Shown here: positions 28,932 to 32,075 of the stretch, piece by piece | Layout of the letters: the number at the start of each line of letters is the position of its first letter | Numbering within the stretch: the first letter of the stretch is position 1 | Assembly (NCBI RefSeq): GCF_012844225.1 | Contig: NZ_JABAGQ010000003.1 | Location: 186,001-250,000 of the forward strand | Source of the DNA: Rhodococcus sp. 105337 | GTDB lineage: Bacteria; Actinomycetota; Actinomycetes; Mycobacteriales; Mycobacteriaceae | Length of the DNA stretch: 64,000 nt | Direction: 5' to 3' | Notes under the pieces: model-generated | What the model was told of the DNA's origin: nothing | Database searches by the model: none | The model's input: only the letters and a program-made list of their open reading frames with translations | Made by a program: the position numbers and the translations under genes

Positions 28932-29723
28932 ATGGGAGGCGTGCGCAAACTGATCTTCGGTCTCGTGGTCCTGCTCGGAGTCGCCGTTCTCACCGACTTC
29001 GGCGCGGCGGCGTGGTCCGAGTACCGCGTGTCTCGTGCACTGCGCGAGGGTGGCGTACTCCAGGCCGATCCCGCCGTCACCATTCACGGCTTCCCGTTCC
29101 TTCTCCAGGCCCGCAACGGGCATTACGAGAACGTGGAAATCGTGGCCGACGGAGTGCACACCGAGATGCTCGGGGACATCACCGTCGAAGCGAACCTCAT
29201 CGGCGCCCATGCCGCCGCGGGCGAACTGCTCGACGGGTCGATCCGTACCGTGCCGGTGGACCTCCTGTTCGGCCGCGTCATGATCGACGCCACCGAACTC
29301 GGGCAGCTCTACAACATCCCTGACCTGCAGATTTCCGCCCCTCCGGAGAGCAAGTCCGACGGGACCGGCGGGTCGGGAGGATCCGGTCCGACCACTGCCG
29401 GCGGCGTCGTGCTCACCGGTACCGTGCCGGTCGGGCCGGAGCCCGCGACGGTGAGCGTGCAGGCCGACCTCGTGCTCGACGGGGACCGCGTGCACATCGT
29501 GGCGTCCGACCTGTACTTCGGCCGGGAGGGGCGCGCGGACTTCGCGGTGCCCGACGCGCTGAAGCCGGTCGTGCTCGGGTTGTTCACCACGACGATCGAG
29601 CCTCAGGATCTGCCCTTCGGCGTGAAGCCGACGTTCGTGGAGGCACGAGGATCGCGCATCGTCATCGAGGGCGAGGCGCACAACACCACGATCGATCTCA
29701 CCGAGGTGCAGGCAGCCCCGTGA
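28932..29723 (+). CDS. lmeA: DUF2993 protein, LmeA-like (lipomannan/mannan maturation)
   Basis: 263 residues from ATG 28932 (GTG 28941 is an alternative, but GGGAGG would be too close to it). N-terminal membrane helix or uncleaved signal (VRKLIFGLVVLLGVAVLTDFGAAAW), then a DUF2993 lipid-binding fold: VTIHGFPFLLQARNGHYENVEI, a Gly/Ser-rich insertion (SDGTGGSGGSG, about 140-150) and the ending RIVIEGEAHNTTIDLTEV. In mycobacteria Rv0817c/LmeA is a phospholipid-binding protein needed for mannan elongation of lipomannan. The same place between glnR and thiX supports the name. It should act outside the membrane. Confidence 0.85.
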   Translation: MGGVRKLIFGLVVLLGVAVLTDFGAAAWSEYRVSRALREGGVLQADPAVTIHGFPFLLQARNGHYENVEIVADGVHTEMLGDITVEANLIGAHAAAGELLDGSIRTVPVDLLFGRVMIDATELGQLYNIPDLQISAPPESKSDGTGGSGGSGPTTAGGVVLTGTVPVGPEPATVSVQADLVLDGDRVHIVASDLYFGREGRADFAVPDALKPVVLGLFTTTIEPQDLPFGVKPTFVEARGSRIVIEGEAHNTTIDLTEVQAAP

Positions 29724-30142
29724 TCGCACTCGTTGTTCTCGCGATCGTGATCGTCGCCACGCTCGGCGTCGGAGTGATGTTGCGCACACGCGAAGGCAAG
29801 ATCCGCGCGAGCAGCCCGGAAGGCGCCGGATCTGACTACGTCGACCCTGCGCTCGCGGCGGTGGGGGTGGGCGGCGGCGTGCCCGTGATCCTGCACTTCT
29901 CCGCGCCGTGGTGCGGACCGTGCGCATCCGTCCGGCGCGTGATCGCCCGTGTCCTCGGCGACACGTCCGGAGAAGCACTCGACGTGGAACTCGACCTCGA
30001 CGAAAACCCGCTTCCCGCCAGGCAGCTCGGGGTGATGTCGCTACCGACGACCTTCGTGTTCGACGCCGCCGGACGCGAGCGCTACCGGGTGTCCGGTGTA
30101 CCGGAGGCCGCCGACCTCCGCGCGGCCCTCGCATCTCTGTAA
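29720..30142 (+). CDS. thiX: Membrane-anchored thioredoxin-like protein (ThiX)
   Basis: 140 residues from GTG 29720, overlapping the lmeA stop (GTGA). One N-terminal membrane helix (about 2-22), then a thioredoxin fold with W64-C65-GP-C68 and the cis-proline loop SLPTTFVF. VFDAAGRERYRVSGVPEAADL is the usual thioredoxin end. The helix places the redox site next to or outside the membrane; orientation is inferred. It matches Rv0816c by position. The following sulfurtransferase genes suggest a role in sulfur or thiol metabolism. It probably shares a transcript with lmeA. Confidence 0.87.
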   Translation: MIALVVLAIVIVATLGVGVMLRTREGKIRASSPEGAGSDYVDPALAAVGVGGGVPVILHFSAPWCGPCASVRRVIARVLGDTSGEALDVELDLDENPLPARQLGVMSLPTTFVFDAAGRERYRVSGVPEAADLRAALASL

Positions 30143-30175
30143 TACGCAGTGGTCCTATTTCCCCCGATCTTCGGT

Positions 30176-30187
30176 TAAACTCCTCGC
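30176..30187 (+). promoter_or_regulatory. Promoter of the polycysteine leader (leaderless -10)
   Basis: TAAACT at 30176-30181 is a good actinobacterial -10 hexamer, with exactly 6 bases (CCTCGC) before the GTG at 30188. The transcript should start at or beside the GTG, making the leader ORF leaderless. Confidence 0.6.
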
Positions 30188-30274
30188 GTGCACACACGCC
30201 AGGAGCTGATGCTCACCCGACGCCGCGCAGTCGACCTGTGCCGCCTCGGCGCGTGTTGTTGTACCTGCTCCTGA
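30188..30274 (+). CDS. Leaderless polycysteine leader peptide (attenuator uORF)
   Basis: 28 codons from GTG to TGA. The peptide is Arg-rich in the middle (LTRRRAV) and ends with cysteines at C18, C23, C24, C25 and C27 (CCCTC near the end). Three consecutive TGT codons within five cysteine codons near the stop are what a cysteine-sensing attenuator needs. Leaderless polycysteine short ORFs acting as cysteine-responsive attenuators are known upstream of sulfur operons in mycobacteria. ATG at codon 8 (30209), preceded by AGGAG, could be an internal start. It lies 145 bases upstream of the DUF4395-sseA-sseC cluster. It is too short for standard gene finding. Confidence 0.78.
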   Translation: MHTRQELMLTRRRAVDLCRLGACCCTCS

Positions 30275-30297
30275 CGCACGGCTGCTGAGTAGTCACC

Positions 30298-30378
30298 GCG
30301 GGCTCCTGTCCCCGCTCCGCAGTTGCTGACGTCTCCCCCGATGCGTTTCCCCGCGGTCGGTCGCCGTTCGGCGACCGA
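30298..30378 (+). promoter_or_regulatory. Structured attenuator region after the polycysteine leader
   Basis: Between the leader stop and the DUF4395 start there is a 5-bp hairpin GCGGG/CCCGC (30298-30315) and a perfect 10-bp hairpin (30357-30366 with 30369-30378, bases TCGGTCGCCG and CGGCGACCGA). The second is not followed by a T run, so termination would be Rho-dependent or the structure would mask translation. The function is inferred from the leader. Confidence 0.45.
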
Positions 30379-30418
30379 ATCCCGCTCAGCTATCCCGGAT
30401 CCCAGCAGGAGCACTCTC

Positions 30419-30883
30419 ATGTCCGTTCCCGGTCCCACCCGTACCGGTTCGCAGGTCGACGTCCGCGGACCGCGTTTCGCAGCGTGGATCACCACCGCCG
30501 TCTTGGTCGTCGTACTGCTCGTCTCGACGGTCTCGAACACCGTTGCGGGCGTTGTGCTCGGGGTGCAGGCCCTCGTCTTCGCGATCGGCGCAGCGTTCGG
30601 TCCGCGGCGCAGCCCGTACGGCGCGCTGTTCGCAGGCCTGGTCGCACCACGATTGGGCGCACCTTCCGAGACCGAACCTGTTGCGCCACTGCGCTTTGCA
30701 CAGTTCGTCGGCTTCGCATTCGCGGCTGTCGGCACCGTCGCGTTCGCGCTCGGCGCCGGAACCGTCGGAATCGTGGCCACCGGCTTCGCGCTGTTCGCCG
30801 CTCTCCTGAATGCCGCCTTCGGCTTCTGCCTCGGCTGCCAGATCTACCCACTGATCGCTCGGTTGCGTTCCGTCGCGGCCTGA
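30419..30883 (+). CDS. DUF4395 integral membrane protein of the sulfurtransferase cluster
   Basis: 154 residues from ATG 30419 with AGGAG upstream. After a polar start (SVPGPTRTGSQVDVRGPRF), there are four membrane segments: about 22-60 as a hairpin (ITTAVLVVVLLVSTVSNTVAGVVLGVQALVFAIGAAFG) and about 95-135 as a second hairpin. A conserved CLGCQIYPLI motif (two cysteines spaced CxxC) lies just before the C-terminus. DUF4395 genes often sit beside rhodanese/thioredoxin genes in actinobacteria, so a role in moving or relaying sulfur or thiols across the membrane is likely but unproven. Confidence 0.82.
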   Translation: MSVPGPTRTGSQVDVRGPRFAAWITTAVLVVVLLVSTVSNTVAGVVLGVQALVFAIGAAFGPRRSPYGALFAGLVAPRLGAPSETEPVAPLRFAQFVGFAFAAVGTVAFALGAGTVGIVATGFALFAALLNAAFGFCLGCQIYPLIARLRSVAA

Positions 30884-30933
30884 TCACCACCCGGCTTCAA
30901 CAACCACACGCACCATCACCGAAAGGAATATCC

Positions 30934-31767
30934 ATGGCTCGCTCCGACGTCCTGGTCTCCGCCGATTGGGCAGAGCAGAATCTCGATGCACCCAAGACCG
31001 TGTTCATCGAGGTCGACGAGGACACCAGCGCCTACGACGGCGGCCATATCGAAGGCGCCATCCGGCTGGACTGGCGCAAGGACCTGCAGGACGGCGTCCG
31101 CCGCGACTTCCTGAATCAGGAACAGTTCTCGGCGTTGCTGTCCGCCAAGGGCGTCGCCAACGACGACACCGTCGTGCTGTACGGCGGCAACAACAACTGG
31201 TTCGCCGCGTATGCCTACTGGTACTTCAAGCTGTACGGCCACCAGGACATCAAGCTCATCGACGGCGGTCGCAAGAAGTGGGAACTCGACGGCCGTCCGC
31301 TGTCGAAGGACGAAGTCACCCGGCCCGCAACCGAATACAAGGCACAGGCACCGGACACGTCGATCCGTGCCTTCCGCGACGAGGTGATCGACGCGATCGG
31401 TTCCAAGAATCTCGTCGACGTGCGTTCCCCCGACGAGTTCGCCGGCAAGATTCTCGCCCCGGCCCACCTGCCGCAGGAACAGGCACAGCAGCGTGGCCAC
31501 GTCCCCGGCGCCGTCAACATCCCCTGGAGCACCACCGCCAACGAGGACGGCACCTTCAAGTCCGACGACGAACTCACCGCGCTGTACGCGGCGAAGGGCT
31601 TCGACGACAGCAAGGAAACCATCGCCTACTGCCGTATCGGCGAGCGCTCGAGCCACACCTGGTTCGTGTTGCAGGAGATCCTCGGCAAGAAGAACGTCAA
31701 GAACTACGACGGCAGCTGGGTCGAGTACGGCTCGCTCGTCGGCGCACCGATCGAGTTGGGAGCATAA
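30934..31767 (+). CDS. cysA2: Thiosulfate sulfurtransferase (two-domain rhodanese, CysA2/SseA type)
   Basis: 277 residues, two rhodanese domains. The N-terminal domain (about 1-120, VLYGGNNNWFAAYAYWYFKLYGH) lacks the active cysteine. The C-terminal domain has the nucleophile C233 in the CRIGERS loop (233-239), typical of actinobacterial thiosulfate sulfurtransferases. It moves sulfane sulfur from thiosulfate to a thiol or cyanide. A GAAAGGA ribosome site precedes ATG 30934. Followed directly by sseC, as in M. tuberculosis Rv0815c-Rv0814c. Confidence 0.93.
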   Translation: MARSDVLVSADWAEQNLDAPKTVFIEVDEDTSAYDGGHIEGAIRLDWRKDLQDGVRRDFLNQEQFSALLSAKGVANDDTVVLYGGNNNWFAAYAYWYFKLYGHQDIKLIDGGRKKWELDGRPLSKDEVTRPATEYKAQAPDTSIRAFRDEVIDAIGSKNLVDVRSPDEFAGKILAPAHLPQEQAQQRGHVPGAVNIPWSTTANEDGTFKSDDELTALYAAKGFDDSKETIAYCRIGERSSHTWFVLQEILGKKNVKNYDGSWVEYGSLVGAPIELGA

Positions 31768-31769
31768 AT

Positions 31770-32075
31770 ATGTGCGGAGCACCTGTTCAGAGCCAGAACC
31801 TGCCCGCGGGCGTGGACGTCGAGAAGGAAACGGTCATCACCGGCCGCGTCCTCAACGCCTCCGGTGAACCGGTCGGTGGCGCATTCGTGCGTCTGCTCGA
31901 CGGCACCGGCGAGTTCACCGCCGAGGTCGTCGCCTCCGCCACCGGCGACTTCCGGTTCTTCGCCGCGCCCGGCGAGTGGACGGTGCGCGCACTGTCGAGT
32001 GCCGGAAACGGCACCTCGACGGTGAGCCCCAGCGCTCCGGGCGTCCACAACGTCGACGTCACGGTCGCGAAGTAG
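31770..32075 (+). CDS. sseC2: DUF1416 protein SseC
   Basis: 101 residues. Starts MCGAP, then a single beta-sandwich-like domain (VITGRVLNASGEPVGGAFVRLLDGTGEFTAEVVASATGDFRFF) characteristic of DUF1416. Its cysteine at position 2 is the only one. It is always found with the CysA-type sulfurtransferase and is assumed to help in sulfur transfer; the exact reaction is not known. It starts 3 bases after the cysA2 stop (TAA followed by ATATG), with GGGAGCA as probable ribosome site. Confidence 0.9.
   Translation: MCGAPVQSQNLPAGVDVEKETVITGRVLNASGEPVGGAFVRLLDGTGEFTAEVVASATGDFRFFAAPGEWTVRALSSAGNGTSTVSPSAPGVHNVDVTVAK

Follow-up and report, generated by a model that had tools for sequence, protein, structure and literature searches.

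A conserved polycysteine leader ORF upstream of the DUF4395-cysA2-sseC genes of Rhodococcus, probably the counterpart of a mycobacterial cysteine-responsive leader, with a recurrent RNA fold

The DNA of Rhodococcus sp. 105337 analyzed here (the window, meaning the whole stretch of 64,000 nucleotides) contains a short cysteine-rich ORF followed by genes coding for a DUF4395 protein, a cysA2-like rhodanese, and an sseC-like protein (Table 1). The original prediction had placed DUF4395 and sulfurtransferase genes behind this leader, and the Pfam matches agree. The names cysA2, sseC, and thiX are presumptive, being given by analogy with mycobacteria. The gene just 5′ of the leader (29720-30142) is thioredoxin-like according to Pfam, and its product has a CGPC motif. 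The DUF4395 protein (30419-30883) carries a CLGC (CxxC) motif close to its C-terminus. A second rhodanese is found elsewhere in the genome (L002, C12:164697-165503), with 48% identity to the cysA2-like protein.

Table 1. Features of the leader region and of the genes behind it (positions in the window)
Feature	Position	Strand	Basis or remark
-10 box TAAACT	30176..30181	+	sequence; mRNA 5′ end placed at the GTG by inference
Leader ORF, 28 codons + TGA	30188..30274	+	recognizable in 109/110 cysA2 loci
Helix P0, 5′ strand ACACGC (codons 3-4)	30194..30199	+	pairs with 30251-30256
Helix PA, GAGC-TGAT-GCTC (codons 6-9)	30203..30214	+	MFE
Helix PB, CCGA..GCGCAG-TCGAC-CTGTGC..TCGG (codons 10-21)	30217..30249	+	MFE; synonymous codons
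Helix P0, 3′ strand GCGTGT (codons 22-23), reaching into the first TGT	30251..30256	+	fold
Cys run TGT TGT TGT (codons 23-25), proposed stall site	30254..30262	+	sequence
Anti-SD TGCTCCTG (Cys27, Ser28, first two stop bases)	30266..30273	+	MFE; pairs with 30406-30413
5-bp hairpin; last 5′ stem base and loop form a second anti-SD, GCTCCTG (30302-30308)	30298..30315	+	fold
9-bp hairpin (30357-30365/30370-30378), without T run, no clear role	30357..30378	+	fold
Shine-Dalgarno region CAGGAGCA of DUF4395	30406..30413	+	motif and fold
DUF4395 gene (154 aa)	30419..30883	+	PF14340, 2.8e-43
cysA2-like rhodanese sulfurtransferase gene (277 aa)	30934..31767	+	PF00581, 1.8e-35
sseC-like gene, DUF1416 (101 aa)	31770..32075	+	PF07210, 9.1e-44

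The leader ORF codes for the 28-residue peptide MHTRQELMLTRRRAVDLCRLGACCCTCS and stops at a TGA (30272-30274). As predicted, five cysteines fall within its final 11 residues (CRLGACCCTCS), and codons 23-25 are TGT TGT TGT. No other stop in the six frames of the window has 5 or more Cys among the 11 residues before it, and none of 10 mononucleotide-shuffled windows gave one. The TAAACT box that had been described 6 nt upstream of the GTG at 30188 is indeed there, and its position suggests that the mRNA begins at or beside this GTG and would hence be leaderless. A TANNNT motif lies 6-7 nt upstream of the start in 105 of 108 loci of relatives and the window, and 8 nt upstream in 3, against a background of 238 out of 17023 RTG codons with the motif at 6-7 nt, a recurrence that is partly circular because the choice of start in the relatives favored such a box. 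A sigma-70 scan gave no match at the leader promoter; we do not count this against the promoter because the scan demands both boxes.

Conservation was assessed on the best 80 of at least 582 cysA2 loci confirmed in named genomes, whose cysA2 proteins are 78-92% identical to that of the window and among which the nearest named relatives are Rhodococcus. Adding 29 loci from 265 other genomes of the family with a strong match, and the window itself, gives 110 loci, some of them identical or nearly identical to each other. A leader is recognizable in 109 of these, in Rhodococcus, Nocardia, Gordonia, Tsukamurella, Williamsia, Mycobacterium, Micromonospora, Blastococcus, and others; the exception is a Gordonia MAG (L024), which has a dissimilar ORF only. 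Comparison of the peptide across Rhodococcus, Nocardia, and Gordonia had been proposed as a check on the original prediction, and the Cys-rich leader does recur. Among 108 picked leaders, 104 fit the core pattern, L027 and L073 are near variants, and L082 is degenerate. Two Tsukamurella leaders (L026, L030) are plain, though the picking filter missed them, and are counted among the 109. The 104 pattern leaders comprise 98 distinct sequences (ORF plus 60 nt), of which 96 are of equal length, and these have 82 distinct first 75 nt. TGT accounts for 233 of the 461 Cys codons in the leader tails; it is less common in the DUF4395 genes (8 of 177) and in 41 long window ORFs (51 of 213). The cysA2 genes (TGT in 0 of 98) were replaced as a background for Cys codons, as they contribute one Cys per gene.

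DUF4395 stands between the leader and cysA2 in 94 of 108 loci. It is absent from the six Gordonia loci, the Williamsia locus, and the Micromonospora locus, from 2 of the 22 Mycobacterium loci, and from 4 of the 48 loci of Rhodococcus or without a genus label. The gene had been thought to distinguish this arrangement from the mycobacterial one, which does not hold, since the other 20 Mycobacterium loci have it too. Two of the loci without DUF4395 (L013, L076) keep the leader and show, by eye, a Shine-Dalgarno-like site and a start codon where DUF4395 would be expected to begin, perhaps as remnants of a decayed DUF4395 gene.

Excerpts of Shell et al. (2015; PMC4633059) describe a conserved small ORF with clustered C-terminal Cys codons before mycobacterial cysA2/Msmeg_5788, report ribosome occupancy on it in M. 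smegmatis, and propose cysteine-directed attenuation. Later papers, as excerpted, credit Canestrari et al. (2020) with showing that the genes behind the leader respond to cysteine in M. smegmatis through control of translation, and call the mycobacterial system translation attenuation, in which RNA structure prevents translation. The window leader resembles this one in its putative leaderless start, its C-terminal Cys run, its site before the cysA2 operon, a peptide core also conserved in mycobacterial loci, and an RNA-structure model of control. It differs in having CCCxC where mycobacterial loci have up to six consecutive Cys, in the register of helix P0 (76 here, 73 in mycobacteria), in a second anti-Shine-Dalgarno (anti-SD) sequence in its spacer, and in its score against NF042933 (leader_Ms5788A, an equivalog model). 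This score is 42.3 bits (E 4.1e-11), 2.7 bits short of the cut-off of 45, and for this reason we speak of a corresponding leader of a known kind and not of a formal NF042933 member. Against NF042934 (cis_reg_atten, putative leader peptide) the ORF scores 28.3 bits for a cut-off of 27, and 26.7 bits at the same site in a genome scan, so its membership is borderline; it matches the 19-position core of this model, which is however a broad domain and silent on cysteine. NCBIfam thus offers curated models for leaders as short as this, contrary to the expectation that the ORF would be too short for normal annotation. In sum, two features of leaderless polycysteine attenuators are present, a Cys run near the end of a short ORF and a site upstream of sulfur or cysteine genes at the corresponding locus. 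Conservation and the publications on the mycobacterial counterpart lend good support to the original reading of the ORF as a polycysteine leader, putatively leaderless, ahead of sulfur genes. The leader is well conserved and belongs to an already known kind. Excerpts of papers on Streptomyces lividans and Corynebacterium name leader peptides, none of them a polycysteine one before cysA2, and among the papers listed or excerpted there was no report of such a leader in the genus Rhodococcus.

The leader RNA (30188-30450) has a minimum free energy (MFE) of -106.8 kcal/mol (z -2.37), and 5 of 200 shuffles are equally stable. In the MFE structure the tail of the ORF pairs with the Shine-Dalgarno (SD) region of DUF4395, with probabilities of 0.75-0.99 per base, and in the free leader the tail binds the SD with a probability of 0.99. 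Among 77 distinct loci with DUF4395, tail complementarity peaks at the SD (mean -15.3 kcal/mol, against -6.1 to -11.4 kcal/mol for intervals whose starts lie between -78 and -36 or between -12 and +60). The SD interval ranks first in 23 loci and among the top three in 44, and the tail pairs better with the DUF4395 SD than with the cysA2 SD of its own locus in 76. Relative to shuffled SD intervals, the value for the window is 0.044 and 48% of the 77 loci are at or below 0.05; all these anti-SD matches are favored by the way in which SD sites were chosen, namely through an AGGAG-like motif close to the inferred start (no such site was found for L043 and L068). Matched tail and SD pairs surpass mismatched ones overall (4 of 2000 permutations), and are no better within Mycobacterium, Nocardia, and Rhodococcus (264, 1117, and 1434 of 2000). 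The tail of the window behaves as a general anti-SD, its own SD being third among 11 AGGAG sites before long ORFs (mean -13.5). SD and tail pair with a mean probability of 0.48 across 87 loci, but of only 0.20 across the 16 named Rhodococcus ones. Eight distinct leaders that lack DUF4395 behind them retain the ORF although its tail is unmatched to the cysA2 SD (mean -5.75).

When the RNA is masked as by a ribosome stalled at codon 24, the SD becomes more accessible by over 0.1 in 41 of 87 distinct leaders and less accessible in 5, the mean passing from 0.215 to 0.347. A control mask gives such a rise in 7 of the 84 leaders where it can be placed, and a mask for an early ribosome on the first codons in 15 of 87. 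The stalled-state fold of the window shows no release of the SD: the second anti-SD recaptures it (probability about 0.75-0.83) and it remains 1-4% accessible, against 12% with the early-ribosome mask. L088, whose DUF4395 comes closest to that of the window (84%), lacks this second anti-SD in its spacer, as judged by eye.

Two hairpins had been predicted behind the leader. The 5-bp one is confirmed (30298-30302/30311-30315); the other exists as a 9-bp stem closed by a 4-nt loop, not as the predicted 10 bp, which would require a 2-nt loop. Among 40 loci inspected by eye, only L088 has a hairpin similar to the latter. Neither hairpin is followed by a T run, as had been said of the downstream one. 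A scan for intrinsic terminators has its sole hit inside the ORF (30237-30253), one being found against 0.7 expected by chance, and no stable stem with a T run, as in an attenuator of the intrinsic-terminator type, precedes the first gene. From the missing T run the original prediction concluded that expression may be stopped in a different way. This conclusion is not borne out: the lack implies nothing new because the mycobacterial system is itself called translation attenuation in the excerpts cited above, and the folds, with the reservations given, fit masking of the ribosome-binding site.

We think it likely that the leader corresponds in Rhodococcus to the one before mycobacterial cysA2/Msmeg_5788, and that it gauges cysteine in cis for the DUF4395-cysA2-sseC operon through masking of the SD. 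Control would probably be translational, by occlusion of the ribosome-binding site. Transcription would start at or next to the GTG at 30188, and ribosomes would load on the leaderless 5′ end. With ample Cys-tRNA they would pass the Cys codons and depart, the leader would refold, and the predicted pairing of its last codons with the DUF4395 SD would leave the operon poorly translated. When cysteine is short, a ribosome would stall on the Cys run, cover the anti-SD, and thereby free the SD, a release that the window's own fold nevertheless does not reproduce. No intrinsic terminator would be required. In the work of Canestrari and colleagues in 2020, ribosomes stalled in the polycysteine tract are reported to keep the mRNA from forming structures in which the ribosome-binding site would be hidden. 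In translation attenuators of the erm type, a stalled leader ribosome frees the downstream SD; here, in contrast, the signal would be missing charged tRNA and not a drug, and the start would be leaderless. The use of leader codons for the regulated amino acid to sense charged tRNA is shared with transcription attenuators of the trp/ilvB1 type. An excerpt on ilvB1 (PMC13236596) describes a terminator with a U tract, and none was found at the window leader.

The spacer of the window (30275-30418) has 59 C against 40 G in 144 nt and may contain a Rho site. Control could then be transcriptional, with Rho terminating in the C-rich untranslated spacer unless a ribosome holds the RNA, and with cysteine setting the read-through. 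This is consistent with an excess of C over G in 91 of the 92 spacers of DUF4395 loci, which average 39% C and 26% G, and with the lack of an intrinsic terminator above chance. However, such an excess may be ordinary for 5′ leaders, and a stall upstream of the exposed spacer would be expected to raise the access of Rho, not to lower it. We regard Rho-dependent control as unlikely. It and the alternatives that follow overlap with SD masking and with one another, and their probabilities are not exclusive.

The ORF itself contains a recurrent RNA fold of three helices. With each of the 82 distinct leaders folded singly, P0-like pairing is found in 75, PA in 75, and the top of PB in 77; these tests omit L024, L027, L073, and L082 (pattern), L026 and L030 (unpicked), and L059 and L068 (length). 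Over 65 distinct pairs of P0 strands, matched strands reach -12.40 kcal/mol and permuted ones -10.78 kcal/mol, with 0 of 2000 permutations as good. By genus the permutation test gives 0 of 2000 in Rhodococcus (31 pairs), 10 of 2000 in Mycobacterium (17), and, showing no covariation, 893 of 2000 in Nocardia (12). A P0 helix of 6 bp or more is present in 58 of the 82 leaders, against a mean of 34 and a maximum of 44 in 200 permutations. With P0 in a fixed register, all five measures exceed 500 of 500 shuffles in 20 distinct Mycobacterium leaders (L082 left out), where nt 7:66 is GU, GC, AU, or UA, with 3 unpaired; sliding P0 by +2 gives more doubly changed cells (6 against 3). One fixed register shows no clear excess of covariation (49 to 165 of 500) in a Rhodococcus/Nocardia set of 30, made of the window and 29 distinct named leaders and omitting ten loci that have another PB base (L014-L016, L018-L023, L025). 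RNAalifold on the 82 leaders chose PA and a shifted PB, without P0; P0 was found by pairwise tests instead because its register shifts between clades. Covariation is uninformative on PA and PB, as these hardly vary, and at the PB base it is not significant by permutation (231 of 2000). A tree-based null with the 5′ or the 3′ strand re-evolved gave 1 and 0 of 300 for P0, 1 and 10 of 100 for PA, 211 and 0 of 300 for the PB base, and 2 and 23 of 100 for the PB top, and is rough because changes were applied regardless of the ancestral base. Rfam returned only mir-1247 for 29700-31000 of the window (E 2.1, below gathering, at 29917-29983).

The choice of synonymous codons in the helices is position-specific. 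Codon 9 (Leu) is CTC in 96 of 96 leaders, and codon 17 is CTG in all 92 of the 96 that have Leu there; CTC and CTG make up 42% and 54% of background Leu codons in cysA2, and 45% and 37% in long ORFs of the window. At codon 14, 77 of 98 leaders have GCA or ACA; GCA represents 7.5% of Ala codons and ACA 0.9% of Thr codons in cysA2 (12% and 6% in the long ORFs). Every second leader (41 of the 82) was compared with synonymous recodings. Leaders are more stable than recodings drawn from the codon pool of the leaders (mean z -2.41; 80% of the 41 at 0.05) and than those drawn from cysA2 usage (mean z -1.49; 41% of the 41 at 0.05), and for the window leader alone the values are 0.02 and 0.082. Tentatively, the ORF may be dual-coding, combining cysteine sensing with a conserved three-way-junction RNA (P0, PA, PB) that covers almost all of the ORF and has no Rfam match in the search of the window. 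In this reading, selection on unusual synonymous codons would maintain the fold across Mycobacteriales, and the fold would act as an element of the switch. This recurrent fold within the ORF may be the less familiar feature of the leader and is the part most worth pursuing.

Going beyond dual coding, the RNA fold could be the switch itself: with the 5′ region buried, together with part of the Cys run, it would set how often ribosomes load, and the anti-SD would be secondary. The frequency of the three helices, the stability of leaders relative to their recodings, and the retention of the leader where the SD match is missing are all compatible with such a role. Yet the GTG is fully paired in just 17 of the 82 folds, the register of P0 varies by clade without clear covariation in the fixed-register Rhodococcus/Nocardia set or in the Nocardia permutations, and the stability excess of the window leader is only that given above for the two controls. 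We consider it improbable that the fold replaces SD masking in this way.

A role for the peptide itself, by nascent-chain arrest or as a trans-acting small Cys-rich protein, would explain the conserved VDLCR core. In the PB loop, the 82-leaf tree has 0 changes at position 2 of the Val codon and at positions 1 and 2 of the Asp codon, against 28 and 19 at their third positions, and four other candidate leaders of the genome have a VDL core. Several synonymous sites of the stems have nevertheless hardly changed, so that some of the constraint seems to act on the RNA, and the fold suggests that some of the conserved peptide is the shadow of a conserved RNA; a peptide function seems to us more doubtful still than the two preceding alternatives. 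That the ORF is spurious, as its shortness might suggest, is hardly credible in view of its conservation, the position of the promoter, and the footprints published for the mycobacterial counterpart. SD masking by the leader, our preferred reading, would mean that the cysteine-responsive leader known in mycobacteria also operates in Rhodococcus and its relatives. It comes with a checkable RNA model that states which bases may mask the ribosome-binding site, and that addresses both why half of the leader Cys codons are TGT and why the VDLCR core is retained in a leader whose job would be stalling at Cys.

The genome contains seven further NF042934 matches, one of them at the cut-off. Four (L117, L119, L120, L121) resemble short leaders with a VDL core. 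The genes that follow them code for a protein with a Trans_reg_C domain, a protein that matches no family above its cut-off, a pyridine-nucleotide reductase, and a sulfite/nitrite reductase. The leader before the sulfite/nitrite reductase gene has 7 Cys.
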